Shown in pieces: positions 37,065-60,392 of a stretch of DNA of 64,000 nucleotides. This DNA is from Candidatus Eremiobacterota bacterium. Its GTDB lineage: Bacteria > Vulcanimicrobiota > Vulcanimicrobiia > Vulcanimicrobiales > Vulcanimicrobiaceae. The notes beneath the pieces were generated by a model that saw only the letters and a list, made by a program, of their open reading frames with translations, searched no databases and had not been told where the DNA came from. The translations under genes and the position numbers were made by a program. The DNA lies in NCBI GenBank assembly GCA_019235885.1, contig JAFAKB010000011.1, forward strand, positions 1 through 64,000. Reading direction: 5' to 3'. Every line of letters begins with the position of its first letter. Position 1 is the first letter of the stretch.

Positions 37065-37093
37065 GAAAGAAGCTACGCTGCTGGCAAGCAGAG

Positions 37094-37198: not shown

Positions 37199-37550
37199 AG
37201 TACAATTCTATCACAGCAACCGAAGCGCCATGGCTCGACCGCCCTAAACATAACGTACGGGGCCCCACTAAGCCTGGAGGCGACCGAGGCCGATTTGATC
37301 GCGGGAGAGGCAGACTTGCGTGCTGATGTATGGCTGCGATAATGCTTCTAGTCAGCAAGCACCGCGCCAACAACGAATACTCCGCCAGCGCCTTTGTCGG
37401 TGAGCCTGGTCACTTCAGTATAGGACGAACCAACACACCCGGCCCGCTAGGCGAATATCGGTGGCTCCCAAACAGAGCGTTGAATGTTAGATCCTCGCCA
37501 GCAAGATGACGGGATCACGCGCACAGCCTCGCATCCCTGAAAGACTGAAC

Positions 37551-38225: not shown

Positions 38226-38288
38226 CGCACCGTTCCTCCTTTTGTCCTATTGTCCTCCGCCGCAAACAAATTGCCCACGAACGCCCGG

Positions 38289-38948: not shown

Positions 38949-38991
38949 TGTTCTTTCGTTCGGCCTTCGTGAGCTGGGCTTCGAGGTTGCT

Positions 38992-45655: not shown

Positions 45656-45738
45656 CGGCGAGCGTCGTTCGACAGTTCGGACCGAGGATACCCCGCGGGT
45701 GCGACGGAATCGGGTATCCTTCACTCGGGAGTCCGTCC

Positions 45739-46458
45739 ATGCTGATGCTTCTGCCGATCGTCGTCGCGCTTGCCGCAACCGAGCCCGTCCCTGCCGCGAG
45801 CACCGCTCCGACCACCTCGTCCGCCCCCACGCCGCTGAAGGAGATCGGCCGCGTTCGCGCGCTGCCGGCCTGCGTGCCGATCGTCGCGCACGCGAACGGC
45901 GCGATCTCGCAAGCGCTCGACAACGACCGCACGCTGGCGATCATGACGAACAACTTGCACGCGACCGACTTCGACAAGCTGAACATGCTGCAGCGCCGCA
46001 ACGCGATCGAAGCGCTGATGAAGCAGGCCGAGGCGATGCGCGTCGCCTCTTCCGCCGGCGACGTCGAGGTGAAGAAGCTCCGCGAGTACGCGGTCAACTC
46101 GCCCGACCCGCAGCGCAAGGCCGAGCTCAAAGCGTTCGCCGACGCGCTCGGCGGCGCGCTCTACCGCCAGAAGAAAGCCGCGGTCGAGTTCATGCGCGAC
46201 GTCACCATCATGCGCGGGCGCGAGGAGGCGCAGGAAGCGCGCGACATCATGCACCGCGACAATCCGGTCCCGCCCTCGCTGATCGCGCAGCAGATGAACG
46301 AGACCGCCGCGAACGGCGGGCCGCTGCCGCAGCCGCCGGCGACCTACAACAAGCAGATGCGCCTGATCGGCGACACGCTGAACGAGCTCACGCAAGGAAT
46401 CTTGGTCGACGAAGGGATCGCCGCCGATCACAGCATCGCGGCGACGTCCGGCTGCTGA
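45739..46458 (+). CDS. Secreted helical protein, unknown
   Basis: A 239-residue exported protein. The signal peptide is MLMLLPIVVALAATEPVPAA. The mature part is almost wholly helical, with NMLQRRNAIEALMKQAEAMR and RKAELKAFADALGGALYRQK among the longest helices, and two isolated Cys (LPACVPIVAH and the C-terminal Cys). No family is recognised. It precedes ctaB by 4 bp on the same strand, so co-transcription with haem O synthesis is likely. It may act in the periplasm. Confidence 0.65.
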   Translation: MLMLLPIVVALAATEPVPAASTAPTTSSAPTPLKEIGRVRALPACVPIVAHANGAISQALDNDRTLAIMTNNLHATDFDKLNMLQRRNAIEALMKQAEAMRVASSAGDVEVKKLREYAVNSPDPQRKAELKAFADALGGALYRQKKAAVEFMRDVTIMRGREEAQEARDIMHRDNPVPPSLIAQQMNETAANGGPLPQPPATYNKQMRLIGDTLNELTQGILVDEGIAADHSIAATSGC

Positions 46459-46462
46459 CGGC

Positions 46463-47398
46463 ATGAGCTCGACGCTCTCGCGCGTCGACGGAGCGCAGAA
46501 TCCCGGGCCGGCGAGCGGCCCTTTCGCTACGTTGAACGACTATTACGAGCTGGCCAAGCCGCGCATCATCTACCTGCTGCTGGTGACGACCTTCGCCGCG
46601 ATGGCGATGGCCGCGCGCGGCGTCCCGCCGCTGCTGCTGACGCTCTGGACGCTGCTCGGCGGAGCGCTCTCGGCCGCCTCGGCCGGCGCGATCAACTGCG
46701 TGTGGGACCGCGACATCGACCGCTTGATGACGCGCACGAAAGGGCGCCCGGTCGCGCGCGGCGCGATCTCGCCGCGTGACGCGCTGATCTTCGCGGCGCT
46801 CGCGCAAATCGCCGGCTTCGCGCTCTTGTACGTGCTGGTCAATCCGCTCGCGGCGTGGCTCTCGCTCGCCGGCAACGCCTACTACGTGGTGATCTACACG
46901 ATGTGGCTTAAGCGGGTGACGCCGCTGAACATCGTGATCGGCGGCGCGGCCGGCGCGGTTCCGCCGCTGGTCGGCTGGGCGGCCGTCACGGGACACCTCG
47001 GCTCGCCCGCGTTCGCGCTGTTCGCGCTGATCTTCTTGTGGACGCCGCCGCACTTCTGGGCGCTCTCGCTGATGACCAACGTCGACTACGACAAAGCCGG
47101 AATCCCGATGCTTCCGAACGTCAAAGGCATTCCGCGCACGAAGCGTGAGATCATGATCTACTCGCTGGTGCTGGTCGGCGTCTCGCTCGCGTTCTTTCCG
47201 CTGCACGTGCTGGGCCCGTGCTACGGCGGCTGCGCGGCGGTCCTCGGCGCGGTGTTCCTGTGGGATGCGTGGAAGATCCACGGCGACCCGACGAAGCGCG
47301 GTGCGCGCGTGCTGTTCAAGTACTCGCTGCTGTACCTGGCGCTGATGTGCGCGGCGATGGTGCTCGACCGCGTCGTCCGCTTGCCGCACATCCTCTGA
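46463..47398 (+). CDS. ctaB: Haem O synthase (protohaem IX farnesyltransferase)
   Basis: A 311-residue UbiA-superfamily membrane enzyme. DYYELAKPRIIYLLLVTTF is the N-terminal signature. The prenyl diphosphate/Mg site is NCVWDRDIDRLMTRTKGRPV (N/DxxxD), and LFLIFLWTPPHFWALSLM-type sequence and YDKAGIPMLPNVKG follow. It farnesylates haem B to haem O for haem-copper oxidases, in the inner membrane. Cytochrome oxidase genes are not in this window; the CusF-Sco gene at 54971 would serve the same enzyme. An MFS transporter gene follows 14 bp later. Confidence 0.95.
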   Translation: MSSTLSRVDGAQNPGPASGPFATLNDYYELAKPRIIYLLLVTTFAAMAMAARGVPPLLLTLWTLLGGALSAASAGAINCVWDRDIDRLMTRTKGRPVARGAISPRDALIFAALAQIAGFALLYVLVNPLAAWLSLAGNAYYVVIYTMWLKRVTPLNIVIGGAAGAVPPLVGWAAVTGHLGSPAFALFALIFLWTPPHFWALSLMTNVDYDKAGIPMLPNVKGIPRTKREIMIYSLVLVGVSLAFFPLHVLGPCYGGCAAVLGAVFLWDAWKIHGDPTKRGARVLFKYSLLYLALMCAAMVLDRVVRLPHIL

Positions 47399-47412
47399 CG
47401 CCAGGCGCAAAG

Positions 47413-48822
47413 GTGGCCGCCGGCGCCGACACGACGGTAGCCGGCCACCGGCTCGACCGCGGGACGTTCCCGCTGCTGCTCACGCTCGGGCTCGGCGTGT
47501 TCGCCGGCGCGCTGGATCTCGGCGTGCTCTCGCCGGCGCTGCCGGCGCTCGGCGCGGCGTTCGGCGTCGGTCCGCGCAATCTCGCGTGGGTCTTCACTCT
47601 GTACCTGCTTGCCAACGTGGTGTCGATTCCCATCGCGACGAAGCTGGCCGATCGCTACGGCCGGCGCCCGATCTACATCGGATGCGTTGCCGTGTTCGCA
47701 TGCGGCAGCGTTCTCGCGATCGCTGCGCCGTCGTTCGCGGTGTTTCTCGCAGCGCGGGCGATTCAAGCCGCGGGAGCAGGTGGAATCTTTCCCGTCGCGA
47801 CGGCCGCGATCGCCGACCGCGTCCCGCCGGACCGCCGCGGTGCGGCGCTCGGGCTCGTGGCGGCGACATGGGGGCTGGCAGCCGTGCTCGGGCCGGTGAT
47901 CGGCGGTCTGATCACCCACTTCATCTCGTGGCGCTGGGTCTTCGCGCTGAACGTGCCGCTCGCAGCCGTCGTGGTGGTACTGGCGCGCACGCACGTCCCG
48001 GCGAACCCGGCGAAAGCGCGCGGCCCGCTCGACGTCGCCGGGATCGCGACCCTTGCGCTCGGCCTGCTCGCGCTGATGGGTTTGTTGACGCGGTTGTACG
48101 CGTTCTCCGGGACGGTCGATCCCGCGCTGGCGTGGACGATGGTCGCGGTGGGTGGGATCGCCTTCGCGGCGTTCGCGCTCGTCGAACGCCGCGCCGCGCA
48201 GCCGGTGATTCCGCCGGCGTTCTTTCGCGACCGCCAGCTCGTCGTCACCTACGCGCTCGAGGTGCTGATCGGCGCGCTCGAAGGTTCGCTCTTCTTCATC
48301 CCGGCGGCGCTCGTCGCCGCGCAACATCTCTCGTACGCCGCAGCCGGCGGCGTCGCGGCGCTCGGCGCGTGCTGCTTCGTCGGCGTGATCCCGCTCTCGG
48401 GCAGCGCGCTCGACCGCGTCGGCAGCCGCGTCGTCCTGATGTCCGGAACGGCGCTCACCGCCGCCGGGCTCGCGATCTTCGCCTTCGGGTTCGGCAACAT
48501 ATGGACCGCGCTGCTGGCGATGATCGTGGCCGGCGCAGGATTCGGCGCGCTGCTCGGCGCGCCGACGCGCTACATCGTCACCAGCCACGTCGCGCCCGAG
48601 CAGCGCGCGAGCGCCGTCGGGCTGCTCTCCGTGTTCTTGATCATCGGACAGATCGTCGGCGGTTCGCTCGGCGGCGGCGTCGCCGGCTCACACGGCACCC
48701 TCGTCGCCGGCTATCGCATCGCGTACCTCGTCTTCGCGGGGATCGCCCTGGGCGCGCTGCTGCTCACCGCCGCGCTCTCATCGCACCGCGCCGAGCTGGC
48801 GCGGGCGCGCGCGCACCACTGA
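47413..48822 (+). CDS. MFS drug/solute efflux transporter (DHA2-like)
   Basis: A 469-residue protein of about 13-14 membrane helices. The MFS loop motif LADRYGRRPIYIG lies between helices 2 and 3, and RAIQAAGAGGIFPVATAAIAD and LGLVAATWGLAAVLGPVIGG give the family's helix 4-5 region, including a motif-C-like Gly/Pro run typical of drug antiporters. It exports unknown compounds with proton exchange. The GTG at 47413 lies 14 bp after ctaB. Its C-terminus is basic (RARAHH). Confidence 0.88.
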   Translation: MAAGADTTVAGHRLDRGTFPLLLTLGLGVFAGALDLGVLSPALPALGAAFGVGPRNLAWVFTLYLLANVVSIPIATKLADRYGRRPIYIGCVAVFACGSVLAIAAPSFAVFLAARAIQAAGAGGIFPVATAAIADRVPPDRRGAALGLVAATWGLAAVLGPVIGGLITHFISWRWVFALNVPLAAVVVVLARTHVPANPAKARGPLDVAGIATLALGLLALMGLLTRLYAFSGTVDPALAWTMVAVGGIAFAAFALVERRAAQPVIPPAFFRDRQLVVTYALEVLIGALEGSLFFIPAALVAAQHLSYAAAGGVAALGACCFVGVIPLSGSALDRVGSRVVLMSGTALTAAGLAIFAFGFGNIWTALLAMIVAGAGFGALLGAPTRYIVTSHVAPEQRASAVGLLSVFLIIGQIVGGSLGGGVAGSHGTLVAGYRIAYLVFAGIALGALLLTAALSSHRAELARARAHH

Positions 48823-48863
48823 GCCAGGGCGACGACTGCCGCTAGACGAAGGATCCGGGTCCT

Positions 48864-50039
48864 TTGCCGAGCCTCGTCGACGACGCGCCGCGGTGTCACG
48901 TCGCGGTCACGAAGGTCGCCAGCCGGTGCAACCTCAACTGCACCTATTGCTACGTGTACAACGCGGGCGACGAGACGTACGCGGCGCAGCCGCGTGTCAT
49001 GGCGCGCGCGACGGTCGATGCGCTCATCGAGCGCGCCGCCGAACACTGCGCCCGGCACGATCTGGAGTGGTTCGAGTTCGTCTTCCACGGCGGTGAGCCG
49101 CTGCTGGCGGGGCCGGAGTTCTTCACCTACTTCGCCGAGCGCGCCGCCGCACGTCTGCCGCCATCGACCGCGCCGCGGTTCAGCATGCAGACGAACGGCA
49201 CGCTGTTGACCGCGCCCTGGTGCGAGCTGCTCCGCGCGCTCGACGTGCGCCTCGGGATCAGCGTCGACGGCCCGCAAGCGATCAACGACCGGCAGCGCGT
49301 CGACCATCGCGGCAAAGGCTCGTACGAGCGCATTCGGCGCGGCTGGGAGCTGGCGCAAGCACACGGCCTCGATCCCGGGCTGCTCGCCGTCATCGACGTG
49401 CAGGCAGATCCGCTTGAAGTGTTCGCGCACGTGCTCGAGCTGAAACCGCGCAAAGCCGACTTTCTCTTGCCGCAGGCGAACCACGACAAGCCGCCGCCGC
49501 ACGCCGCGCCCGGGACGACACCGTACGCCGACTGGCTGTTGCAGGTCTTCGCCGTGTGGATCGACGACGCGACGCCGCCGGTGCGCATCCGGCTGTTCGA
49601 GCGGATCGTGCACGCCGTTCTCGGCCTGGCGAACGCGTCCGACGCGATGGGACCCGGCCGCAACGAAGTGCTGGTCGTAGAGACCGACGGCGGAATCGAG
49701 CCGGTCGACGTCCTGAAGATCTGCGGTCACGGAATCACGAAGACGCCGCTCAACGTCGCGCGCGACGAGCTCGACGACGCGTTCGCGATCCCGCTGCTGC
49801 AGCTGTACCACTTCAGCGGCCGGCGGCTGTGCGCGACGTGCAACGCCTGCCCGATTCGCGAGATCTGCGCGGGCGGCTACCTGCCGCACCGCTTCAGCAA
49901 AGCGAACGCGTTCGACAACCCGTCGGTCTACTGCGCCGACCTGCTGAAGCTCATCGCCGGAATCCAGAACTGGGTCGTCGCGCAGCTTCCGGCCGAGCTC
50001 ACCGCGCGGCTCGGGCTCGTCCCGCTCGCGCCGGCGTAA
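48864..50039 (+). CDS. Radical SAM/SPASM peptide maturase-like protein
   Basis: A 391-residue radical SAM protein. The SAM-binding cluster is Cys22, Cys26 and Cys29 in SRCNLNCTYCYVYN. FVFHGGEPLLAG, SMQTNGTLL and LGISVDGPQ are the usual core strands. The C-terminal SPASM domain has Cys287, 323, 326, 329, 335 and 357 (CATCNACPIREICAGGYLPH), enough for auxiliary Fe-S clusters. Relatives form Cys or C-C crosslinks in RiPPs or mature sulfatases. It converges on the MNIO RiPP operon with 3 bp between stops, and no sulfatase is nearby, so peptide modification is likely. Confidence 0.85.
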   Translation: MPSLVDDAPRCHVAVTKVASRCNLNCTYCYVYNAGDETYAAQPRVMARATVDALIERAAEHCARHDLEWFEFVFHGGEPLLAGPEFFTYFAERAAARLPPSTAPRFSMQTNGTLLTAPWCELLRALDVRLGISVDGPQAINDRQRVDHRGKGSYERIRRGWELAQAHGLDPGLLAVIDVQADPLEVFAHVLELKPRKADFLLPQANHDKPPPHAAPGTTPYADWLLQVFAVWIDDATPPVRIRLFERIVHAVLGLANASDAMGPGRNEVLVVETDGGIEPVDVLKICGHGITKTPLNVARDELDDAFAIPLLQLYHFSGRRLCATCNACPIREICAGGYLPHRFSKANAFDNPSVYCADLLKLIAGIQNWVVAQLPAELTARLGLVPLAPA

Positions 50040-50042
50040 GCC

Positions 50043-51074
50043 TCACAACTGCACGAGGTGCAGAAAGCGCGCGATCCCGTCGTGCTCGCCTTCGGCGTGC
50101 GCGACCAGCGTGCAGCCGGTTCGCCGGTAGATCTCCCGCCACGCGTCCAGGTTCGCGGGCGGCACGCCTTCGCCGGAGACGACTTGCGCGAGGTCGTGGA
50201 GGAGCGTGCGGCGGAAGCGCACCGGCTCGTCGCCGACCGCGCCGAGCCGGCCGTAGTAGTCGAACAGAAATAGGAAACGATTCGGGAAGAGCGCCTGGAG
50301 CGCGCGCAAGAAGTCGTCGACCGAACGGCCGCGGTAGCCCGCGGCGTACGCGTTCGCGACGCTGACGGCGGCGAGCGCGTCGACGCTCGCGCGGCGCTCC
50401 TCGGACAGCAGCACGCCGACTTCCGCGAGATCGCCGCACACCACTTCGACGCGCCCGTCCAAGCCGCGCGCCGCGAGCAGCTGCCGTGCTGCGCCGACGG
50501 CGGCCGGGTTGGCGTCGATTCCGATCCCGTGAAACGCCGGACTGCTCTCCGCGAGTGCGGCGAGCAGCTGACCGCCGCCGCAGCCGACGTCGAGCAGCAC
50601 GTTGATGCCGAGCTCGCCGGCGAGCGCGACCAGCTCGGGTGCGTTCGAGCCGGTGCTGGCGCGCCGGTACGCGTCGGCGTGCCGCGCGCGGTCGACGAAC
50701 CGCCCGGCCTCGGCCGGCGCGCGCATCACTTCCTGCAAGTTCAGCAAGCAGGGACCGAAGGCGCCGGCGTATTGATCGAGCAGATACGCGGCCGTCCCGC
50801 TCTCGCGGTACGCCGCGCTCGCGGTGAACCGCGCCCCGCGCGGATCGTCGATTCGCTCGACGAGGTCCGAGCGCAGCGCCGCGTACTCGAGCAGCTTCAC
50901 GAGCGCGCCGGCGTCGAAGCCGAGCCGTTCGGCGAGCGGCACCACGTCTTCGCCGGCGCCGAGCGCGGCGAGGACGCCTTCACGGTGCAAAAAATCGAGC
51001 ACCGCCGCGACGTACGTCCCTTCCAGCGCGTCGAGCAGCGTGAGGCGCGCGCCGTCGTGCGGAGCGCCGGACAT
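50043..51074 (-). CDS. SAM-dependent methyltransferase of the RiPP operon
   Basis: A 343-residue methyltransferase. The N-terminal part (about 10-90) is helical, like the dimerisation winged-helix of O-methyltransferases (LLDALEGTYVAAVLDFLHRE). The Rossmann core follows with the SAM motif LLDVGCGGGQLLAAL (160-174) and the acidic VVCGDLAEVG. It begins 2 bp after the radical SAM gene stop and is the last gene of the minus-strand RiPP operon. In aminopyruvatide clusters a methyltransferase acts on the carbon next to the MNIO-made alpha-keto acid; here that is only a hypothesis. Confidence 0.85.
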   Translation of the reverse strand: MSGAPHDGARLTLLDALEGTYVAAVLDFLHREGVLAALGAGEDVVPLAERLGFDAGALVKLLEYAALRSDLVERIDDPRGARFTASAAYRESGTAAYLLDQYAGAFGPCLLNLQEVMRAPAEAGRFVDRARHADAYRRASTGSNAPELVALAGELGINVLLDVGCGGGQLLAALAESSPAFHGIGIDANPAAVGAARQLLAARGLDGRVEVVCGDLAEVGVLLSEERRASVDALAAVSVANAYAAGYRGRSVDDFLRALQALFPNRFLFLFDYYGRLGAVGDEPVRFRRTLLHDLAQVVSGEGVPPANLDAWREIYRRTGCTLVAHAEGEHDGIARFLHLVQL

Positions 51075-51076
51075 CC

Positions 51077-53065
51077 CTAGCCGGCGGCGACGAGCGTGCG
51101 CCGCGGCAGCTCGCACACGAGCGCGCCGAGCTCGACCAGCGATGCGACGCCGTTCCAATCGGCGAACGGCTCCGTGCATCGCGCGGCTGCCGCGCCGTAC
51201 TCCCAGTACGACGCCGGCCGCTCGAACGCACGCAGAACGCCCGCGGTCGCCGTGCCGATCGCATAGGTCGCGACGATCTTTTTCCCGGCCGCGGGCGTGC
51301 ACACGAGCAGCAGCGTCGTGAGCGGGCCGTCGGACGACGTCAGCGGTTCGGCCTCGCCGTGTTCGAACCGCCGCAGCAGCGCAACGCAGTCGTGCACGTC
51401 CTCGAGCACGGCGGCGCGTGCGCTCAGCCGCAGCGCGACGTCGCGCGGGTCGCCGTGCGCGCCCAAAAGCGGGGGCGCATTCGGCTCGCGCGCGGCGCAA
51501 ATCGCATTCGACGCGTGCGCGTAGCGAAACAGCGAAACCAGCTGGTGGCGCGCGCCGAAGCGCGCGGTGAGGAACGCGATCAGGTCGGACGCGCTCGCGC
51601 CGTCCGCCGTGACGGCGCGCTCCCCGTACCACTCGTACGCTTCGCGCATGAAGTGGGCGAGGCTCCCGCCGAACGCGCGCAGCGCGCACACCGCGGCCGG
51701 GCGGCCCAGCGTGCAGAGCGCGATCCAGGCCGACGCAACGAAGACGTTTCGCGCGCGCGGGAGCACCGTCGCAAAGTGCTGGTGGTTCGCGAAGATCGCC
51801 GGCTCGGCGGCGAGCAGCGCGCCGTCGTCCGGGTGCAGGCGCGGAAAGTTGAAGTCGGTGACGTAGCCATCGAAGCGCAGCGCGGCGTGGTGCTCCTCGA
51901 TCAGCTGCGTGCCGGGCTCGGGGGTGAGCAGATGGATCTGCGAGGTCGTCCGCGCACCGGGCCGGCACCACAGGCGGCCGGCCATCTCGAGCGTCGCGTC
52001 CTGGTCGGCGCGCTCTTCGTCGGGATAACCGATGATGAACGAGGCGGTCGAGCGTATTCCGTTCGCGTCGCAGGCGTCGAGCACCGGCTCGACTTCGGCC
52101 AGATCGAGCCGCTTGCGCGAGCGCCGCTGCATGCGCTCGCTGCCCGCTTCGATCCCGAAGTAGATGCTGCGGCAGCCGGCACGCGCCATCGTCGACAGCA
52201 GCTCCGGATCGACGCAGTCGGTGCGCGCCGAGCAGCCCCACGTGTACGTGCGGTCGAACAGCGCCTCGCAGAACGCGCGCACCTTCGTGCGGTTCACCGT
52301 GAACAGGTCGTGGTTCAGCTTGAAGTCGCTGAACCCGTAGGTCCGGTGCAGGTGATCCATCTCGGCGAGCAGCCGCGCGACGCTCTTGAGCCGGTAGCTG
52401 CGCCCGAAGAACGACGCGGTCGAGCAGAACGTGCAGCTGAACGGACAGCCGCGACCGGCCTCGACGCGGATCGTTTCGAGCCCGAGCTCGCCGATCGGAT
52501 AACAGTCATACGCCGGGACGGGGAGCCCGTCGAGGTCCTGCACGATCGGGCTCGCCGCGCCGCAGACGAGCTCGCCCGCCGCCCCGCGGTACGAGACGCC
52601 GGTGAGCTCACCGAAATCGCGTTCGTGAACCCGCGCGAGGAGCGGGAGCAGCGTCTCCTCGGCTTCGCCGCGCACGACGAAGTCGAACTGCGGAAAGCGA
52701 TTCACGATCTCGCGGTGGAGGATCGTCGCGTGCGGTCCGCCGAGCAGAACCGGCAGCGCGAGATCGATCTGCTTCAGCCGGCGCGCGACGTTGACGACGC
52801 AGTGCATGTTGCAGCCCAGCGCCGTGAAGCCGACGACGTCCGGTCCGCGCGCTGCAATCTGCTCCGCCATCGCCGAGTAGAGCGAAGCGTCCAGCGCGAG
52901 CTCGCCGCGCGTCAGCGCCAGCTTCGGGTCGTACACCTGCGCGTCGACTCCGGCGCCGCGCGCGACGGCGACCAGCGAGAGCAGTCCGAGGTGCGGCTGC
53001 AGGTCGAACACCGGCGCGCTCGCCGTGCCTTCGTAGAGCAGGTTGTCGACGAAGACTACGCGCAC
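51077..53065 (-). CDS. Cobalamin-dependent radical SAM enzyme with long C-terminal extension
   Basis: A 662-residue enzyme. Residues 1-150 form a B12-binding-type Rossmann domain (MRVVFVDNLLYEG, PDVVGFTALGCNMHC, LPVLLGGPHA). The radical SAM core has Cys207, Cys211 and Cys214 in RGCPFSCTFCST, then FSDFKLNHDLFTVN, IYFGIEAGSERMQ and ASFIIGYPDEE. About 230 further residues after residue 430 do not resemble the core and include a segment VASLVELGALVCEL. B12-radical SAM enzymes methylate unactivated carbons. Its GTG start overlaps the partner gene by 10 bp. It probably C-methylates the precursor peptide. Confidence 0.88.
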   Translation of the reverse strand: MRVVFVDNLLYEGTASAPVFDLQPHLGLLSLVAVARGAGVDAQVYDPKLALTRGELALDASLYSAMAEQIAARGPDVVGFTALGCNMHCVVNVARRLKQIDLALPVLLGGPHATILHREIVNRFPQFDFVVRGEAEETLLPLLARVHERDFGELTGVSYRGAAGELVCGAASPIVQDLDGLPVPAYDCYPIGELGLETIRVEAGRGCPFSCTFCSTASFFGRSYRLKSVARLLAEMDHLHRTYGFSDFKLNHDLFTVNRTKVRAFCEALFDRTYTWGCSARTDCVDPELLSTMARAGCRSIYFGIEAGSERMQRRSRKRLDLAEVEPVLDACDANGIRSTASFIIGYPDEERADQDATLEMAGRLWCRPGARTTSQIHLLTPEPGTQLIEEHHAALRFDGYVTDFNFPRLHPDDGALLAAEPAIFANHQHFATVLPRARNVFVASAWIALCTLGRPAAVCALRAFGGSLAHFMREAYEWYGERAVTADGASASDLIAFLTARFGARHQLVSLFRYAHASNAICAAREPNAPPLLGAHGDPRDVALRLSARAAVLEDVHDCVALLRRFEHGEAEPLTSSDGPLTTLLLVCTPAAGKKIVATYAIGTATAGVLRAFERPASYWEYGAAAARCTEPFADWNGVASLVELGALVCELPRRTLVAAG

Positions 53066-53838
53066 GCGGCGCCGCTCGTGATGAACCCTTGCGCCGCGGC
53101 GTCGGCGAAGAACTCCTCGACGCGCGCCGGCACCAGCTTGCCGAACCCCAGCGCGGCGACGGCGGCGGCGACGTCGTGCGCACTGCGCCGCCCGTCGACG
53201 AGCGAGAGCAGCAGCCAGGTGAGCTCGTCGACTTCGAAAAACGCGACCTCCGCGCGATCCGGCATGCGCCGGTAGAGCAGGATCTGCTCGCGCAGCACCA
53301 CGTCCGTCGCGAAGTCGAAGCGCCGGGCGCGCAACGCCGCGCACGCGCGCCCGACGTCGACGCCGTAGCGGTTGAACGCCGCGCCGCCGCGCCAGCGCAG
53401 CGCCTTGCCCGGGCCGAAATCCGGCGCGTCGGCCGTGGTCGTAAGGCGGTGCACCGTCGACTCGTGCAGCAGCACGCCGCGCAGCAGCGCGCGCATCTCG
53501 GCCGGCCGCTCTGCGACGAAGTCGTCGAGCTGCCGGCCGAGCAGCTCGATGCGGCGCTGGTCCGAGAGTGGACCCTGCGCGCGCTCCGCCGCGAACGCCG
53601 GCGCGTAGGCGGCGAAGAAGTCGATCTCGGCGCCCAACAGCGCGAGCAGTCGGAACGTGCACGGCAGCACGGTGCGCAGCGGGTTGTGCTTGACCTTGGT
53701 GATGAACCCGGCGAACAGCGCCAGCTTCTTCAGATCGGCGCCCTCGAACACAGCCGTTTCGTCCGCGCGCGCCGCCGCCAGGAACGCCGGCTCGCTCAGG
53801 CAGCGCGCTACGAAAGCGTGAGCGCGGTCGGCGTCCAC
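53056..53838 (-). CDS. MNIO partner protein with PqqD/RRE-like C-terminal domain
   Basis: A 260-residue protein. The middle (NPLRTVLPCTFRLLALLG, FFAAYAPAFAAE, RQLDDFVAERP) is helical, like the DUF2063/MbnC-type partners that work with DUF692 oxidases. The C-terminal 70 residues (VAFFEVDELTWLLLSLVDGR, DVAAAVAALGFGKLV, ARVEEFFADAAAQGFI) follow the strand-turn-helix pattern of PqqD-type RiPP recognition elements. It would hold the leader of the precursor and position the core for the oxidase. It overlaps the MNIO gene by 31 bp and the radical SAM gene by 10 bp, which supports a complex. Confidence 0.75.
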   Translation of the reverse strand: MDADRAHAFVARCLSEPAFLAAARADETAVFEGADLKKLALFAGFITKVKHNPLRTVLPCTFRLLALLGAEIDFFAAYAPAFAAERAQGPLSDQRRIELLGRQLDDFVAERPAEMRALLRGVLLHESTVHRLTTTADAPDFGPGKALRWRGGAAFNRYGVDVGRACAALRARRFDFATDVVLREQILLYRRMPDRAEVAFFEVDELTWLLLSLVDGRRSAHDVAAAVAALGFGKLVPARVEEFFADAAAQGFITSGAACA

Positions 53839-54734
53839 GTCGGCTCACGCCGGTGCGCGGCTGCGGCGATGAGGCTGCGCGCGCGGCCAACGTCGCCCTC
53901 GACGATCTCGAGCGGGAAGCCGGCGTCCCAGTTGTACTCGATCGTCACCGCGCGCGGCATCGTGCGCGCGAGTAAACGCTCGAGCAGCTCGAACACGACC
54001 GGCGGCGCCGGCTCGACGTGATCGTCCCACGCGACCCCCGACTGCTCGCGCGCGCCCGACAGGTGAACTTCCACCACGCGCTCGAGCGGCAGCGCGTCGA
54101 GCGCTTCGAACGGGTCGGCGCCGGTGTTGCGGCAGGTCGCCCACAGGTGCGCGAGGTCGAGCAGCAGCAGCACGTCGTCCGAGCGCGCGCACAGCTCGCA
54201 CAGGAACGCGAACTGCGACATCGTGCTGCCGGGCATCGTGAAGTAGATCGGTCCGTTCTCGAGCAGCACCGGGAGCCCGAAGCGCCGCGTCCACGCGCCG
54301 AGCGCGGCGGCGACGCGGTCGATCACCGCGGCGCTGAGCTGCGGGCTGACCGTGTAGCCGACGTTGAACGGCGCGGCGGGAGCGCTTCCCGCGGTGAACG
54401 CGGGGTGCTCTGCGTATTCGCGCAACACGCCGTCGGCGCGCACGTACGCGAGGTGCTCGCCGAGCCACGGCGTCTTCGTCTCGGTGATCCAGCGCTCGAG
54501 CTGCTCGACGGTCTCCGCCGCGGGCGGAACGTTCCCGGCCAGCGACAAGCTCGCGCAGTGCAGAACGAGCGGCGTCTCCCGGCAGTGCTGCGCCACGTCC
54601 GGCGTGCCGGCGAGCTGCTCGAACGCGATCTCGACGAAGTCGACCAGTCCCGGCGCTGTTGCGAGCAGCGTTCGGGTGTACGGGCTGTAGGCGACCCCGA
54701 CCGCGGTGCTAGTCGATCCTTTGGTCGAAACCAC
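53808..54734 (-). CDS. DUF692 / multinuclear non-haem iron oxidase (MNIO) of the RiPP operon
   Basis: A 308-residue TIM-barrel oxidase. Metal-ligand candidates are in place: His59 (LVLHCASLSLAG), Glu93 and His94 (WLGEHLAYV), Glu159 (LLENGPIYF), Asp193 and His196 (LLDLAHLW), His224 (VEVHLSGA), Asp238/His239 (WDDHVEP) and Glu266 (TIEYNWD). Family members bind two or three irons and oxidise Cys, Asn or Asp residues of RiPP precursors. The GTG at 54734 overlaps the precursor gene by 26 bp; an AAAGGA further in has no usable start after it. This is the key enzyme of the locus. Confidence 0.88.
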   Translation of the reverse strand: MVSTKGSTSTAVGVAYSPYTRTLLATAPGLVDFVEIAFEQLAGTPDVAQHCRETPLVLHCASLSLAGNVPPAAETVEQLERWITETKTPWLGEHLAYVRADGVLREYAEHPAFTAGSAPAAPFNVGYTVSPQLSAAVIDRVAAALGAWTRRFGLPVLLENGPIYFTMPGSTMSQFAFLCELCARSDDVLLLLDLAHLWATCRNTGADPFEALDALPLERVVEVHLSGAREQSGVAWDDHVEPAPPVVFELLERLLARTMPRAVTIEYNWDAGFPLEIVEGDVGRARSLIAAAAHRREPTWTPTALTLS

Positions 54735-54894
54735 CGTCGCTGCCGAGCGCGAAGCCTTTGAGCTCAGAGGTGATCGTGAGCTTGCCGCGCTTCTCGATGC
54801 ACTCGTGGATCTTCGCCTTCGTCGCCTCGTCGGTGATGTTCACTTCGACGTGATACTTGTGCCCGGTGTCTCCGGACCGTCCTTCACTCGCCAT
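54709..54894 (-). CDS. Candidate RiPP precursor peptide (61 residues, ends in Asp)
   Basis: A 61-residue peptide starting MASEGRSGDTGHKYHVEVN, with AGGGGGCC just before the ATG at 54894. Residues 12-46 look like a structured leader (EVNITDEATKAKIHECIEKR, then KLTITSELK). The tail GFALGSDGGFDQRID has Asp at 53, 57 and 61, one every four residues, and ends in Asp61. The only Cys (32) is in the leader, so Cys-based MNIO chemistry is unlikely and Asp is the likely target. It is the first gene of the operon and overlaps the MNIO gene. No protease or transporter gene is adjacent. Confidence 0.7.
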   Translation of the reverse strand: MASEGRSGDTGHKYHVEVNITDEATKAKIHECIEKRGKLTITSELKGFALGSDGGFDQRID

Positions 54895-54970
54895 GGAGGC
54901 CCCCTTTCGTGCGGCAGTGACGTTCCGCAATCTTAGCTCAAAGCGCTGCCCGAGGCAAGCGTCTCGGCCG

Positions 54971-55987
54971 CTAGACCCCGTGAGCGAAGATCTTCCGCGC
55001 GAACCGGTAGACGAGGTATGCGAACGCGCCGAACACCAGCAGCAGCACGGCGAGATCGGTCAGCCCGCTGAACCCCGCGACGCCGTCGCCGAACAATGCG
55101 ACGGCCCGCGACGAGAGCCAGAGGTTCAGCCGCGCGACCGGGTTGACGGCGCGACCGTTCGCGTCGACCTGCGCCAGGATCTGCGCGGGCAGCCAGGACG
55201 GGTCGGGGAACATCTCGGCGATGCGGCCGTCGCGGTCGACGATCACCGTGTTCTCGGCGTGGATCAGCCCGCCGTTCGGATCGGGGAACGCTGCGACGCC
55301 GAAACCCGCGGCGAAGTCGAGCGTCGGTTCGGCGTCGCCGACGACGAGGCTCCAGCGCTTCGGATCGGCGCCGAACGTCCGCGCGTAGCGCGCGAGCACC
55401 GGCGGGCGGTCGTAGGCGGGATCGAGCGTCACCTCGACGAGGTGCAGGCTGCGCCCGCCGCGCTGCTGCTGGAGCTGGCGGAACTTCGCGCTGATCAGCG
55501 GGCACATGCGCGCGTCTTGGCAGCGCGTGTAGATGAACGACAGCACGACCGCCTGGCCGCGCAGCTGCGAGAACCGGAACGGCTTGCCGTTCTGATCGAC
55601 GAACGGCGTGTCGGGCACGAGCTCGCCGACGTGCAGCTGCTTCACATGACGCGCGCCGGCGTTCTCGGTGAGCGCTTGCGCGGCGCCGCTGCGCACGTTG
55701 CGCAGCGTCCAGGGTTCCGTGCGCGTGTCGACGTCGGCGTCGATCACCGCGCCGGGCTGAAGCTGCGCCGCACGTTCCTTCGGCACAATGCGAAACGGCA
55801 TCGTCATCGCCGGCATCGCGCCGAACGCGTCGTGGCGCACGATCGCTTCGCCGGTCTTGGGCGTCACCGCCAGGACGACGCCGTGCAACTGTGCCGTGCC
55901 GCTCGCGCAGGCCGGGAACGGCAGCGCGAGGGCTGCTGCGAGTGCGAGCACCACGGCGGCGAAGGCCGGCCGGCTCACGTTTGGCAT
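54971..55987 (-). CDS. Copper chaperone: CusF-like domain fused to Sco1/SenC, membrane-anchored
   Basis: A 338-residue exported protein. A signal peptide ends near ACASG. Residues 34-100 form a CusF-type copper domain (HGVVLAVTPKTGEAIVRH and AMPAMTMPF with Met ligands). The Sco thioredoxin-like domain follows, with Cys156 and Cys162 in YTRCQDARMCPL (CX5C instead of the usual CX3C) and a later IHAENTVIVDRDG holding the third copper ligand. A C-terminal membrane helix (TDLAVLLLVFGAFAYLVY) anchors it. It probably loads copper into the CuA or CuB site of cytochrome oxidase. Confidence 0.87.
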   Translation of the reverse strand: MPNVSRPAFAAVVLALAAALALPFPACASGTAQLHGVVLAVTPKTGEAIVRHDAFGAMPAMTMPFRIVPKERAAQLQPGAVIDADVDTRTEPWTLRNVRSGAAQALTENAGARHVKQLHVGELVPDTPFVDQNGKPFRFSQLRGQAVVLSFIYTRCQDARMCPLISAKFRQLQQQRGGRSLHLVEVTLDPAYDRPPVLARYARTFGADPKRWSLVVGDAEPTLDFAAGFGVAAFPDPNGGLIHAENTVIVDRDGRIAEMFPDPSWLPAQILAQVDANGRAVNPVARLNLWLSSRAVALFGDGVAGFSGLTDLAVLLLVFGAFAYLVYRFARKIFAHGV

Positions 55988-56116
55988 TGTCTATTTTTTC
56001 GCGGCCGGCGCACCGTTTCCGGCTGGGAAGCGGCGATCCGCCGCCGAAGCTGCGCCTGCTCGGCGAAACGCCGAGACCGCAATTGTCACTCCGATATACA
56101 GCTCAAGGAGACGTGA

Positions 56117-56416
56117 ATGAACGAGAACGACACGCCGATCTCACGCGGCGGCATGCTCCAAAGAATGGCCGTCGCCCCGATCGCGATCGGCGCGTTTGCA
56201 GCCCTGCAGGCGGAGGCCGACGCCGCCGCCTCGATCGACAAGAAGACAGCCGCCTACGTCGACCATCCGAATCACGGCCAGCAGTGCTCGGGCTGCAACC
56301 TCTTCCTGCCCGCGAAGAAGAACCCGATGAAGTCCGACGGAGCTTGCAAGCTGGTCAAAGGCAGCATCAGCCCGCACGGCTGGTGCAAGTTCTACTCGCC
56401 GAAGCCGCACCACTAG
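56117..56416 (+). CDS. High-potential iron-sulfur protein (HiPIP)
   Basis: A 99-residue exported electron carrier. A hydrophobic leader (MLQRMAVAPIAIGAFAALQA) precedes a mature part of about 60 residues with Cys57, Cys60, Cys77 and Cys90 (CSGCNLFLPA, DGACKLVKG, GWCKFYSPK). The C-x2-C-x16-C-x12-C spacing fits HiPIP, which binds one [4Fe-4S]3+/2+ cluster in the periplasm. HiPIPs carry electrons between the bc1-type complex and oxidase or reaction centre. The twin-arginine signal usual for HiPIP is not present in standard form (SRGGMLQRM). AAGGAG lies 6 nt before the ATG. Confidence 0.85.
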   Translation: MNENDTPISRGGMLQRMAVAPIAIGAFAALQAEADAAASIDKKTAAYVDHPNHGQQCSGCNLFLPAKKNPMKSDGACKLVKGSISPHGWCKFYSPKPHH

Positions 56417-56443
56417 CGGCAGAACCGGCCGAACCGGGGGCGT

Positions 56444-56629
56444 TTACTTGCGAACGTTCCCCGGGTTCGCCGTCTGCGGCGAGCTGGCGTTCAGGGCCAA
56501 CTCGTCCGCCGAGGGATAGGTGGACCACCCGCCGATGTTCCAGCGGCCGTCCGCGTAGTAGCTGCTCGCGGTGGGCCCGTTCGCGGCCTTGGTGAAGTCG
56601 TTGCACAAGGCAGGCTTGTCGGTGGGCAC
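56444..56629 (-). CDS. Small soluble protein, unknown
   Basis: A 61-residue protein beginning MPTDKPALCNDFTKAANGPT, then SYYADGRWNIGGWSTYPSAD and ending ANPGNVRK. An AGGAG with a 7-nt spacer precedes the GTG at 56629, a strong initiation signal, so the gene is probably real. It has one Cys and aromatic-rich, strand-like sequence, and no signal peptide. It is convergent with the HiPIP gene, 27 bp apart. No family is recognised. Confidence 0.6.
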   Translation of the reverse strand: MPTDKPALCNDFTKAANGPTASSYYADGRWNIGGWSTYPSADELALNASSPQTANPGNVRK

Positions 56630-56799
56630 GATGCTTCTCCTCTTGGAACGGCTTGGAACGGCGGCGCGGGACGCCGAACGCGGCTGATGGCGGTATTATA
56701 CCCGAACCCGGGTACGGAACGGTTCCGCGGGCGTTGCCCGCTCCCGCGCGCTTGGCCGCCGGGACCGGACGCGCCGGCCGGGAGGTCGAAGTAACGCTG

Positions 56800-57114
56800 A
56801 TGCCCACCCAAGACGAAGTTCGCGAAGCGCTGCGCGACGTGCAGGACCCCGAGCTCATGATGAGCATGGTCGACCTCGGGCTTATCTACGGCATCGACGT
56901 CGCGGGCGAACAAGACGAAGACGTGAAGGTCACCATGACCTTCACCTCGCCGATGTGTCCGGTCGGTCCCGAGTTCAAGAAGTCGGTCGAGGACAAAGTC
57001 AGCTCGCTGGAGGGCGTCAAGTCGGTCGCGGTCGAGATCACCTTCACGCCGCCGTGGGATCCGCGCATCCATGCCAGCGAGGACGCGAAATTCGACCTCG
57101 GAATCTGGTTCTAG
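56800..57114 (+). CDS. DUF59 (MIP18/SufT family) metal-sulfur cluster protein
   Basis: A 104-residue single-domain protein. PTQDEVREALRDVQDPELMM, then SMVDLGLIYGIDV, and the invariant Cys in MTFTSPMCPVGPEF identify the DUF59 family. Members help mature or deliver Fe-S clusters (SufT, PaaD, Cia2). The ATG at 56800 lies 15 nt after a GGAGG, a long spacing, and a nearby CTG would shorten it. An upstream TATTATACC could be part of a promoter. Its 170-bp upstream gap contains a short tandem repeat of TTGGAACGGC and no gene. Convergent with the PNPOx-like gene; the stops overlap by 4 bp. Confidence 0.88.
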   Translation: MPTQDEVREALRDVQDPELMMSMVDLGLIYGIDVAGEQDEDVKVTMTFTSPMCPVGPEFKKSVEDKVSSLEGVKSVAVEITFTPPWDPRIHASEDAKFDLGIWF

Positions 57115-57596
57115 CCGGCGCCCGCGCGAAGCAGCTCGACGATCGCCGCACCGCCCAGATCGTGCGCGGAGGCGAAGCCCAGCACGAGGCGGCCGCTCAG
57201 CGGCGCCAGCGAAACCGCTTGAAAATCCGGCAGCCTTCGTAACACGCGCACCGTTCCGCCCTGGCGCTGCTCGAGCGCCGACCAGATCGCTTCGGCCGGC
57301 GCCGACTCGGCCGCGTGCGGCCACACCGACACCGCAACCGACAAGCGCGTTCGCGTGTACGCGTCGCGCCGTTCCGCCTCGTCCTCGACGAGCAGCACGG
57401 ACGCGGGCCGCCGCGCCGCCAGGTTCGCGGCGTGCGCGGCCAGCCGGCTCACGACGATGCCGAACGCGCCGCCGGCGGGCGCGAACGGCACGTAGCTCAG
57501 CACTGGGACGCCGCTCTCGTCGATGGTCGCCAGCGCGAGCCACGACTGCGCCGCGATCAGCCGAGCCGCGGCGCCCCGGCGATCTTCTCCCTCCAT
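57111..57596 (-). CDS. Pyridoxamine-phosphate-oxidase-like split-barrel protein (HugZ-like)
   Basis: A 161-residue flavin- or haem-binding split-barrel protein. LIAAQSWLALATIDESGVPV and LSYVPFAPAGGAFGIVVSRL give the N-terminal strands, then AANLAARRPASVLLVEDEA. This segment is typical of the PNPOx-like family that includes HugZ haem oxygenases and general stress FMN proteins. The C-terminal part (VRVLRRLPDFQAVSLAPLSG) matches HugZ-type proteins more than PNPOx itself. Its cofactor and substrate cannot be fixed from sequence. Confidence 0.8.
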   Translation of the reverse strand: MEGEDRRGAAARLIAAQSWLALATIDESGVPVLSYVPFAPAGGAFGIVVSRLAAHAANLAARRPASVLLVEDEAERRDAYTRTRLSVAVSVWPHAAESAPAEAIWSALEQRQGGTVRVLRRLPDFQAVSLAPLSGRLVLGFASAHDLGGAAIVELLRAGAG

Positions 57597-57651
57597 GCAG
57601 CGCGATTCGACGACGGCGCCGGAGAAGCGTTCTCCGGGCCGCGCCGCGCGC

Positions 57652-58014
57652 TCAGCCGCCGCGCTCCTCGGGGCTCGGCGGGAGCGGAAAACCGCACAGC
57701 TCGCAATTTCGCAGACGGCGCGGCGGCGGTGGCTGTGGGGCCGGTGCGGGGGCGACCGGGACCGCGACCACCTCCGCTTCGAGCGCCGTGACGAGGCGGA
57801 GGGCGTCTTCCTCGGAGAGTGCCCCGGCCGCGCGCCCGTACGAGCTCGGATAGTACCAGCCGTGGACCAGGAGGGCGAGGCGTTCCTCGCCGCGGCGCTC
57901 GACCTCCGCGGCCAGCTCGGCCGGGGTCAGTCCCGACGCTGCCAGGGGCAGTAGCCCCCGCGCGCTCGCGGCGTGCACCGCGCGCAGCCACAGGACGGCC
58001 GCGCTCGGGCTCAC
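57652..58014 (-). CDS. Small protein of the MoxR/DUF58 locus with a C-terminal Cys pair
   Basis: A 120-residue protein whose GTG at 58014 overlaps the TGA of the gene before it. It begins VSPSAAVLWLRAVHAASARG, continues GLTPAELAAEVERRGEERLA and LVHGWYYPSSYGRAAG, and ends with a Pro-rich linker and NCELCGFPLPPS. The middle resembles the cytoplasmic end of DUF4129-type proteins found in MoxR/DUF58 gene sets. Assignment is tentative. The last two Cys could bind a metal. A Pro/Ala-rich tail makes the C-terminus probably flexible. Confidence 0.55.
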   Translation of the reverse strand: MSPSAAVLWLRAVHAASARGLLPLAASGLTPAELAAEVERRGEERLALLVHGWYYPSSYGRAAGALSEEDALRLVTALEAEVVAVPVAPAPAPQPPPPRRLRNCELCGFPLPPSPEERGG

Positions 58015-58400
58015 CGGCGCGCTCCGCGAGAGCCCGGCAGGGCGTGGCGCAGCAGGAACACCACCGCGAGCGCCGCCACGGCGAGCGCGTCGATGACGAG
58101 AGCCGGCAGGGTCAGCAGGCCCCACAGCGTCGGCGGTTGCGCCGGCCCGGCGCCGATCGAAGCCGCACCGGGCGGAGCGGCAACGGGGCGCGGCGTTGCG
58201 GCGCTGGCAGCGGTCGGCGGCGCGCCGAAGCGCGCGGGCGGCGCCGTTGCCACCGCGGCGGGGCCGGCCGCGCGTGGATGGCGCGGCAGCGTCGCGAGCC
58301 ATGCCAGGAGGAGCGAGAGCACGAGCGCGGCGAGCGCGACCGCGGCGAGCGCCAGCGCCGAGCGGCGCTCCCCGCTAGTCGAGCCGGCAAATGACGGCAT
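58011..58400 (-). CDS. Two-helix membrane protein of the MoxR/DUF58 locus
   Basis: A 129-residue protein with membrane segments at about 17-35 (LALAAVALAALVLSLLLAWL) and 98-115 (PALVIDALAVAALAVVFLL), joined by an Ala/Pro-rich low-complexity linker. Its start overlaps the end of the larger membrane protein gene by 26 bp and its TGA overlaps the next GTG. The tight overlaps make it part of the operon. The family is not recognised. Confidence 0.6.
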   Translation of the reverse strand: MPSFAGSTSGERRSALALAAVALAALVLSLLLAWLATLPRHPRAAGPAAVATAPPARFGAPPTAASAATPRPVAAPPGAASIGAGPAQPPTLWGLLTLPALVIDALAVAALAVVFLLRHALPGSRGARR

Positions 58401-59232
58401 GGTGATGCGAACGGTCCAGCAACGGCACGATGCTCTGAGGCAGCGTCAGCACGCCCCGGGGGCGCGCCAGCAGCTCGGCTCGCCGAATGCGGCCGGCCAC
58501 CACGCAGACGCCGAGGTAGGCGACGGCGAGCGCGGCGATCTCCGCCCGAACGGCCGGCGCCAGCGCCGCGGCGTCGAAGCCCGCGGCGTACGCGCACGCG
58601 AGCAGCAGCGCAGCGAGCGCGCCCCACGTCAACACCTGCGCGCGAAGGCGCCAGACCGGCGCGATCGCCCACACGGCGGCGAGTCCGGCGGCGGCCGCGA
58701 GGATGCCGCCGGCCAGCCGCAGCACGACCGGCGGATACGCCGGCATCCGTTCGCCGAACAAGACGCCGACCGCGAGGGCCGGCAGCGCGGCGCGAGCGCG
58801 TCCGCCGCCGCTCAGCGCGAGCGCCGCCCCGGCGAGCAGCGCGGTCACGATGACCCCCAGATCCAGGCGCGTCCACAGCGCGGGGATCGCCACCAGCGCG
58901 AGCCCGGCGAGCGCGGCGCGCCAGCTCGCCGCGGCGCCGTGCCGGGTCGACCACGGCAGCGCGCGCGCCCCCGCGACGGCCAGCACGGCGAACGCCCACA
59001 CCGTCGGCCACTCGCCGCGCGCGTTGAGCGCGCCCGCGCCGGTCACCGCGGCGTATGCGGCGGCCGCGACCACGGCCGTCGCGACGTGCAGCAGCCGGTC
59101 CGAGGCGAGCACCTCGAGCCGCACCTCGGCTTGCGCGTCGTCGGTGTACCGGGCGATCTCCGCCTGCGCCCGCAGCAGGTGCGGTTCTTTGCCGTAGAAC
59201 GCCGGGTCGGCGCGGCGCAGCCAGTCGATCAC
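58375..59232 (-). CDS. Multi-spanning membrane protein of the MoxR/DUF58 locus
   Basis: A 285-residue protein starting at a GTG that overlaps the DUF58 gene stop (GTGA). A soluble N-terminal segment (VIDWLRRADPAFYGKEPHLL, then EIARYTDDAQAEVRLEVLA) precedes seven or so hydrophobic helices, and it ends with VLTLPQSIVPLLDRSHHHAV. It probably belongs to the set of membrane proteins (often with transglutaminase or DUF4129 domains) that accompany DUF58 proteins. No such catalytic domain is visible here. Confidence 0.7.
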   Translation of the reverse strand: MIDWLRRADPAFYGKEPHLLRAQAEIARYTDDAQAEVRLEVLASDRLLHVATAVVAAAAYAAVTGAGALNARGEWPTVWAFAVLAVAGARALPWSTRHGAAASWRAALAGLALVAIPALWTRLDLGVIVTALLAGAALALSGGGRARAALPALAVGVLFGERMPAYPPVVLRLAGGILAAAAGLAAVWAIAPVWRLRAQVLTWGALAALLLACAYAAGFDAAALAPAVRAEIAALAVAYLGVCVVAGRIRRAELLARPRGVLTLPQSIVPLLDRSHHHAVICRLD

Positions 59233-60392
59233 GCTCCGACGACCTCGCGGGTGAAGACCGGGACGTGGTCGGGCGTCAGCGTCACCATCGAAAGCCGCTG
59301 CTGCTCCAGCGCTTCGCGCGAGCGCAGGCTCACGAAGATGACGGCCGCGCCGTGGCGGCGGACTTCGCCGAGCAGTGCGCGCACGACCGTCGCGCGGTCT
59401 CCGCGCAATCCGACGTGCGCCAGCTCGCGGTCGAGACGATCGAGATCGGCGTCGAGCGGCCGCACCCGGAGCGACAAGAGATCGTGCTTTCCGCGCTGGC
59501 AGACGAACCGCACGGTCAGGCGCCGCGCCGCGAACGCGCGGCACAGCGCCGAGACGAACGCGATCGCTTTCTCGAAGCGGTAGCGGTGCAGCTCTTCGTT
59601 GCCGTCGAGCGGCGGCGCGGTGTCGAGCACGACGCTCAGATCGTCGCGGCTCGGATCTCTGAACTCGCGCACGAAGAACTGGTTCGGATCGGGCGCGCGC
59701 AGCGAGAGCACGCGATGGATCGTCTTCGGCGAGTCGCCGGGCCGGTATTCGCGCGAGCCGACGTACTCCTCGATCGCCGCCGGCAGCATCTGAAAGCGCG
59801 CGCCGGCGACGTGCCGCCCGGCGAGCAGCGCTTCGACGAACGGGTGCAGCTGATAGACCGCCGGCAGGACGTTGACGGCGTAGACTCGGTCGAAGAGCGC
59901 GGTCGCGCGTATCGCGCTGCCCGGAAGCTCGACGGCGGCGCGGAACGGTCCGACGAGCAGCGTCCCGCGCTGCTTCGCCATCACCTGCCAGTGGGTCGTC
60001 GTGGCGCGGCCGACCCCGAGCATCGGAATCTCCGCCCACGGGCCGACGTCGAGCGCGACGCCGGCGGCCGAGATGCGCGCCTTCGTCAGGACGCCGATCG
60101 CCGGAAACAGACGCCCGACGTTGGCGAGCGTGAAGCCCAAGCGAAACGTGCTCAGCGCGCGGGTGTGCGCCGGCAGCTCGGCGCCGGCGGCGCGCAGCGC
60201 GCGCGCCGCGGCATACGAAATCGTCGTCGCCAGCGCGACCCACAGCAGCGGAAACGCGCCGGCGAACACGACCAGCGCGCGCAGCGCGGGGTGCGCCGTT
60301 CCGGCGAGCGCGAGCACGACGAACGACAGCGCGAACGCGGCCAGACCGGCCGGCGGCGCGAGCGTCAAGTCGATGCGGGACGCGCGCTCCAT
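59229..60392 (-). CDS. DUF58 protein (MoxR-associated)
   Basis: A 387-residue protein. Two membrane helices (about 10-55, LAAFALSFVVLALAG and ALRALVVFAGAFPLLWVALA) come first. DUF58 proper follows, with EEYVGSREYRPGDSPKTIHR as its signature and a vWA-like region after it (FFVREFRDPSRDDLSVVLDT). DUF58 proteins usually pair with MoxR ATPases, which act as chaperones in assembly of metal or membrane complexes. Start is the ATG at 60392, 11 bp after the MoxR gene stop. Confidence 0.9.
   Translation of the reverse strand: MERASRIDLTLAPPAGLAAFALSFVVLALAGTAHPALRALVVFAGAFPLLWVALATTISYAAARALRAAGAELPAHTRALSTFRLGFTLANVGRLFPAIGVLTKARISAAGVALDVGPWAEIPMLGVGRATTTHWQVMAKQRGTLLVGPFRAAVELPGSAIRATALFDRVYAVNVLPAVYQLHPFVEALLAGRHVAGARFQMLPAAIEEYVGSREYRPGDSPKTIHRVLSLRAPDPNQFFVREFRDPSRDDLSVVLDTAPPLDGNEELHRYRFEKAIAFVSALCRAFAARRLTVRFVCQRGKHDLLSLRVRPLDADLDRLDRELAHVGLRGDRATVVRALLGEVRRHGAAVIFVSLRSREALEQQRLSMVTLTPDHVPVFTREVVGA

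Follow-up and report, generated by a model that had tools for sequence, protein, structure and literature searches.

The locus

The window (the whole stretch of DNA analysed, 64,000 nucleotides) contains a block of six genes. Five of them (A, H, I, D and S) lie on the minus strand, and the sixth (F) lies on the plus strand, convergent to S (Table 1). In its compactness and in its order (precursor, MNIO, partner protein, B12 radical SAM enzyme and methyltransferase, with A first) the minus-strand set resembles the published aminopyruvatide (apy) cluster.

Table 1. Features of the block, with positions in the window
Feature	Position	Strand	Evidence
Six-gene block	48823..54970		Absent between the MFS and SCO1 genes in congeners
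F, radical SAM/SPASM of FxsB/YhhB type	48864..50039	plus	NCBIfam FxsB 363.4, cut-off 370; YhhB 335.6, cut-off 445
S, methyltransferase (ApyS-like)	50043..51074	minus	NCBIfam ApyS 271.4 bits, cut-off 400; PDB MppJ 1.2e-10
D, B12 radical SAM C-methyltransferase-like (ApyD-like)	51077..53065	minus	NCBIfam ApyD 688.8, cut-off 750; Pfam B12-binding, Radical_SAM
I, MNIO partner (ApyI-like)	53056..53838	minus	NCBIfam ApyI 145.9 bits, cut-off 200
H, MNIO (ApyH-like)	53808..54734	minus	NCBIfam ApyH 353.6 bits, cut-off 400; Pfam MbnB_TglH_ChrH 1.7e-39
Precursor peptide gene A	54709..54894	minus	61 aa + stop; translation, GC3, relatives, NCBIfam broader_ApyA
Tail, Phe56-Asp-Gln-Arg-Ile-Asp61	54712..54729	minus	Predicted sites: F56-Q58 cross-link, I60 methylation, D61 MNIO
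Leader motif CBX3G, Cys32-Ile-Glu-Lys-Arg-Gly37	54784..54801	minus	Cys, Gly and next Lys invariant in 4/4
Ribosome-binding site of A, AAAGGGGG	54900..54907	minus	Read directly from the sequence

Gene A opens with ATG at 54892-54894 and ends with a last codon at 54712-54714 and a stop at 54709-54711; its translation is MASEGRSGDTGHKYHVEVNITDEATKAKIHECIEKRGKLTITSELKGFALGSDGGFDQRID. The frame looks coding because its third-codon-position G+C is 0.82 (0.56 for the overlapping plus-strand ORF, 0.89-0.93 for seven other genes measured), it follows a ribosome-binding site, its stop overlaps the start of H (GTG at 54734) by 26 bases, and A-like peptides occupy the same place before the MNIO gene in three other genomes. 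The residues named in the original prediction are all right: the translation has Asp at 53, 57 and 61, Phe at 48 and 56 and a single Cys at 32, on the minus strand, and the tail reads GFDQRID. The peptide is present in single copy in its own genome and has no significant match in the PDB. The family model broader_ApyA (NCBIfam NF050152) gives it 27.0 bits, under the curated cut-off of 40.

Four of the neighbouring enzymes match the apy set. An MNIO of the ApyH kind is described as class-defining for aminopyruvatides; among the NCBIfam models for H, ApyH comes first and is followed by BufB (106.8 bits), and TglH is matched in the PDB (2.4e-18). Eight residues of H (His59, His94, Glu159, Asp193, His224, Asp236, His238 and Glu264) match one or the other of two solved MNIO-family proteins and are putative iron ligands. 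A fold search with the model of I (pLDDT 56) returned TglI as its best match, at a non-significant E of 0.29. The best solved relative of S is MppJ, the alpha-keto-acid C-methyltransferase that the apy authors regard as closest in structure to ApyS. Against an aminopyruvatide reading, none of the five Apy models reaches its curated cut-off in the block, and neither does the FxsB model.

The sixth enzyme sets the block apart. None of the six genes matches a P450 in Pfam or NCBIfam, and F instead carries a radical SAM motif, CNLNCTYC (CxxxCxxC), and a Cys-rich C-terminal motif, CATCNACPIREICAGGY, both conserved in a 51% identical relative that holds the same convergent position in Paracoccus. 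Both proteins fall just under the FxsB (TIGR04269) cut-off of 370, at 363.4 for the window and 356.5 for Paracoccus.

Genomic setting

The block is flanked by an MFS and an SCO1 gene, which directly adjoin each other in five of seven congener regions; of the other two, one holds a different insert between them (L070) and one shows SCO1 only (L072). Because the flanking genes adjoin in those five, the six genes look like a unit that comes and goes together. The MFS transporter was considered as the cluster's own exporter and set aside, since it adjoins SCO1 in congeners without the block. Composition does not mark the block as recent foreign DNA, as its G+C matches the surroundings, and Rfam gave no matches at 44000-60000, so that no RNA element was found near the block.

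The different insert in the MFS-SCO1 gap (L070, congener G124, 4052-7570) is a 1172-aa ORF with weak STAND/AAA ATPase and PADLOC mad8 matches. Insertions seem to favour this gap, and they perhaps include defence genes. Elsewhere in the window, 36001-39000 has a G+C of 0.53-0.57 (about 0.69 in the rest) and is a possible island. Just past SCO1, at 56117-56413, lies a gene for a high-potential iron-sulfur protein (Pfam HIPIP, 29.4 bits; NCBIfam iron oxidase, 47.9 with a cut-off of 100).

Relatives and distribution

An initial direct scan of the genome_contigs collection, described as covering 84,980 species, returned no relatives. The collection was also scanned with a degenerate DNA pattern made from two of the blocks of the window MNIO that score highest in the NCBI ApyH model. 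This pattern needs exact matches and fixed spacing, so that clusters varying there are missed; the published Burkholderia clusters were not matched. Four loci were found, three of them with an ApyH relative: Paracoccus limosus (L010, with L018 as the longer stretch), a Sediminibacterium MAG (L011/L020) and a Myxococcales MAG (L012/L021). The fourth (L009) was set aside because its ApyH match was too poor to keep (tblastn E 0.47).

The Paracoccus locus has A, H, I, D and S in the window's order, with F convergent to S. The Sediminibacterium locus has A, H, I, D and S, and no relative of F was found in the genome of that MAG at E 1e-10. The Myxococcales locus has the precursor and a truncated H: the MNIO gene breaks off where the opening stretch of the contig recurs (about 3650-3850 of L021), and the assembly is likely chimeric. 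The precursor there was chosen by eye for its Cys motif among the short ORFs before the MNIO gene and was later found above the broader_ApyA cut-off.

Several other features were seen beside these loci. In the Paracoccus stretch (L018) a transposase-like ORF lies beside the apy-like block (14025-15119), and a second RiPP-like pair (15454-17236) consists of a short protein ending in CESCWCDNVWC and an ORF weakly matching F. On the other side of the block (1044-6945) are long ORFs that may encode phage-tail or gene-transfer-agent proteins. In the Sediminibacterium stretch (L020) S is followed at 12447-13874 by a 475-aa ORF with TPR repeats and a C-terminal part without an assignment, possibly another exchangeable cluster enzyme.

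The apy-like family is rare and scattered within the genomes searched. Among 149 genomes of the phylum the precursor sequence was found in its own genome only, and the ApyH model at E 1e-30 was matched in five, the other four at 107-114 bits vs 353 for the window. Around the relatives, no genome other than the one at the centre matched this model at E 1e-45 in sets of 394, 282, 87, 385 and 349 genomes (the sets overlap partly). Plasmids yielded nothing closer than distant MNIOs and B12 radical SAM proteins, and one plasmid search yielded no match at all. Of four viral-contig scans, three gave no relatives and the fourth only B12 radical SAM proteins, all of them distant. Many Escherichia plasmid records (e.g., NZ_CP024225.1) carry a DUF692/MNIO-type protein with about 28% identity to H, and Escherichia accounts for 56 of the 78 plasmid records matched. 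With these loci, apy-type clusters are now seen in Sediminibacterium, in Myxococcales and in the window's lineage; the original paper named Pseudomonadota and Actinomycetota.

Conservation of the leader and tail

The four precursors share a leader motif and an ending. Cys32, Gly37, Lys38, Ile60 and Asp61 are invariant in all four, so that every leader holds Cys-x4-Gly-Lys and every peptide ends in Ile-Asp; the distance from the Cys to the end is 29, 30, 31 and 30 residues. The tails are GFDQRID in the window, AFKQLID in Paracoccus, SGTQLID in Sediminibacterium and NGKLID in Myxococcales. Published apy precursors are described as having a common CBX2-3G motif and a C-terminal Asp (PMC10635010), and by its sequence Cys32-Ile-Glu-Lys-Arg-Gly37 is that motif. 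The Paracoccus and Myxococcales precursors pass the broader_ApyA cut-off (55.7 and 46.4), and the Sediminibacterium precursor has no match to that model at E 1e-5. Masking residues of the Paracoccus peptide lowered its score by 11.4 bits for the Cys, by 8.9 for the Gly and by only 1.5 for the last Asp; the leader motif is therefore the family signature in this model. Putting the published GEGYLYD ending on the same peptide raised the score by 7.9 bits, which suggests that an Ile-Asp ending is one of the less common types in the model family. We conclude that A is a real, conserved gene, probably for a RiPP precursor of aminopyruvatide type, a class that was already known.

These comparisons bear on most of what had been predicted for the peptide. 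The original prediction saw in the last Asp a target of aminopyruvatide-type chemistry and proposed that its conservation be checked; the residue does not vary freely, all four precursors keep it, and in the window H, I, D and S lie alongside. The regular spacing of Asp every four residues, which had been read as a motif, did not hold up: it is present in the window and absent in all three relatives, where Asp53 and Asp57 have no conserved counterpart, and it looks like chance on this alignment. For the Cys, chemistry on the residue itself had been called unlikely, and this stands, as the apy Cys is described as unmodified. The residue is nevertheless not incidental: replacement of the conserved CBX2-3G Cys is reported to have abolished MNIO activity in apy, and by analogy Cys32 is probably functional. 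An unusually folded leader finds little backing in the four-sequence AlphaFold model (mean pLDDT 59.7), which shows just one helix, at 23-36 around the Cys motif (about 80), with the tail below 50 and the rest low.

Proposed pathway

Aminopyruvatide-type chemistry on Asp61 is the best guess because the Asp is invariant in all four precursors and the H, I, D and S set is present. In Burkholderia thailandensis the apy P450 is reported to cross-link Tyr-Leu-Tyr, ApyD to methylate the beta-carbon of the penultimate Tyr, H and I to convert the last Asp to aminopyruvate (-30 Da) and S then to methylate it (+14), and the MNIO step was absent without the P450 (PMC11117315). Transferred to the window, I would bind the leader and, with the help of Cys32, present the tail to H. 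H would oxidise the beta-carbon of Asp61, with loss of a carboxylate, to give aminopyruvic acid, and S would add a methyl group to the same carbon to give 3-amino-2-oxobutanoic acid. D would methylate the beta-carbon of the penultimate residue, here Ile60 instead of Tyr. The idea that the B12 enzyme acts on Phe thus loses ground, the likely target by apy analogy being Ile60. One point weighs against this step: the ApyD target described in the published work is Tyr, and methylation of the branched Ile beta-carbon would make a quaternary carbon.

The ring would be made differently. A P450 is reported in 74% of apy clusters and absent from 26%, and aromatic residues at -2 and -4 are described only with a P450 (PMC10635010). 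In A these positions are Ile and Gln, neither of them aromatic, which places the peptide outside the P450 subtype. Named members of the FxsB/YhhB group form three-residue cyclophanes by joining residue i to i+2, and links from Phe to Asn and to Ser are among them (PMC11002830). Only the window and Paracoccus precursors, the two with enzyme F, combine a Phe at -6 and a Gln at -4; counted by enzyme, Phe at -6 is found in two of two precursors with F vs none of two without, and the latter have no aromatic residue within the last 20. At two precursors against two, this co-occurrence in the sequences is suggestive only, and one of the absences is weak because the Myxococcales contig is truncated and probably chimeric. 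It suggests that F may stand in for the P450 ApyO by joining the Phe56 ring to the beta-carbon of Gln58, and the resulting cyclophane could perhaps be the pre-organised substrate that the MNIO requires. A protease would then free the product from the leader as a short cyclophane peptide that ends in an electrophilic alpha-keto acid.

On these analogies A is probably the precursor of an aminopyruvatide-type RiPP in which a Phe-x-Gln cyclophane takes the place of the P450 biaryl ring. The product is plausibly a cysteine-protease inhibitor, by analogy a natural guess because the desmethyl apy product is reported to inhibit cathepsins B and L and papain at 0.3-0.6 nM (PMC13192836).

Alternative readings

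The steps assigned to H, I, S and D could be right while F links another pair, such as Phe48 or a residue nearer Arg59, or performs other SPASM chemistry. There are just two F-bearing precursors, and the YhhB model scores F nearly as well as the FxsB model does; the products known for YhhB are described as linking Tyr or His to Arg (PMC11002830), and a Phe to Gln cyclophane is not among the triceptide examples described there. Phe48, however, is not conserved and was rejected as an enzyme target, and what both F-bearing precursors have in common in the core is a Phe at -6 and a Gln at -4. We regard a different linkage as unlikely, if worth keeping in mind. Of the two Phe residues that had been put forward as B12 radical SAM or SPASM targets, Phe56 remains plausible for the SPASM enzyme, as an aromatic residue is shared there with Paracoccus together with F, and Phe48 does not.

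F might also be an independent radical SAM enzyme that merely adjoins an apy-type cluster without a ring-forming enzyme. It lies on the opposite strand, and the quarter or so of published apy clusters described as lacking a P450 (the 26% above) would accommodate such an arrangement. The convergent arrangement nevertheless recurs in Paracoccus, no other ORF of at least 25 aa lies wholly inside the stretches checked beside F in the window, none of the family's 98 other genomes has a match to F at E 1e-30, and in the five congener regions described above MFS and SCO1 adjoin with neither F nor the rest of the block between them. Independence of F is accordingly improbable. The comparison with triceptides (XncB, OscB, MscB and YhhB, of the FxsB family) can be read alongside: by sequence F falls in the same enzyme group, and A also has a candidate i to i+2 motif with Phe. 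The difference lies in the substrate: the ApyA-like peptide is the sole candidate, and a triceptide-type precursor of its own was not seen for F.

It is about equally improbable that the MNIO only hydroxylates, either the Asp beta-carbon (as PesH and PflD do) or Phe (as PbsC does), and makes no aminopyruvate. MNIOs of other RiPPs do perform such reactions, but ApyH is by far the best model for H, an ApyS-like and MppJ-like methyltransferase is present, and the Asp-x-His of H aligns with TglH, whereas PesH and PflD reportedly lack the third-iron HxD, which is perhaps another motif. The pathways concerned differ from the window in other ways as well. Nitrilobacillin (pes) shares an MNIO acting on Asp near the C-terminus and a variable auxiliary enzyme matched by a precursor residue; there, as described, the MNIO stops at hydroxylation, the tail reads R(V/T)DN and a nitrile is formed by an Asn-synthetase-like enzyme (PMC13060819). 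No Asn-synthetase-like gene of this kind was seen in the window block. The biphenomycin-like pbs pathway has an MNIO, a partner and a B12 radical SAM enzyme, as the block does, but its MNIO is reported to hydroxylate Phe in an FRF motif and its B12 enzyme to make the ring (PMC12257519); A has no FRF, a feature of PbsA.

That A is a chance frame and not a gene, as its shortness and the mere 27 bits from the family model might suggest, is so improbable that it can be dismissed, given its GC3, its ribosome-binding site, its place before the MNIO gene and a leader motif and tail conserved in three other genomes.

A possible second aminopyruvatide architecture

We return to a precursor predicted to carry a Phe-x-Gln cyclophane in place of the biaryl ring. 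Measured against the apy cluster of B. thailandensis E264 (Nguyen et al., 2024; PMC11117315, PMC10635010), as described there, the block shares the CBX2-3G motif, the C-terminal Asp, the MNIO and its partner, the B12 radical SAM enzyme and the methyltransferase. It differs in having no P450, no aromatic residues at -2 and -4 and Ile replacing Tyr before the Asp, and in having an FxsB/YhhB-type SPASM enzyme, and all its NCBIfam scores are under cut-off. The class itself is known; the proposed exchange of a SPASM enzyme for the P450, with a matching Phe, is the new and testable part. In the literature searched, no apy cluster is described as containing a SPASM enzyme. The novelty is provisional: such clusters may be listed in the supplementary tables that accompany the apy paper, and a broader_ApyA model exists in NCBIfam.

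More broadly, there may be a second aminopyruvatide architecture across distant bacteria, in which a SPASM Phe-x-Gln cyclophane takes the role of the P450 ring next to a B12-methylated Ile and a keto-acid end; we put this forward tentatively, as a possibility of nearly even standing. If true, the keto-acid protease-inhibitor warhead would be constant and the ring-forming module swapped. A natural cluster that pairs the warhead enzymes with another ring enzyme would put to the test whether the MNIO recognises the ring, the leader Cys or only the terminal Asp, and would demonstrate that the ring module can be exchanged.
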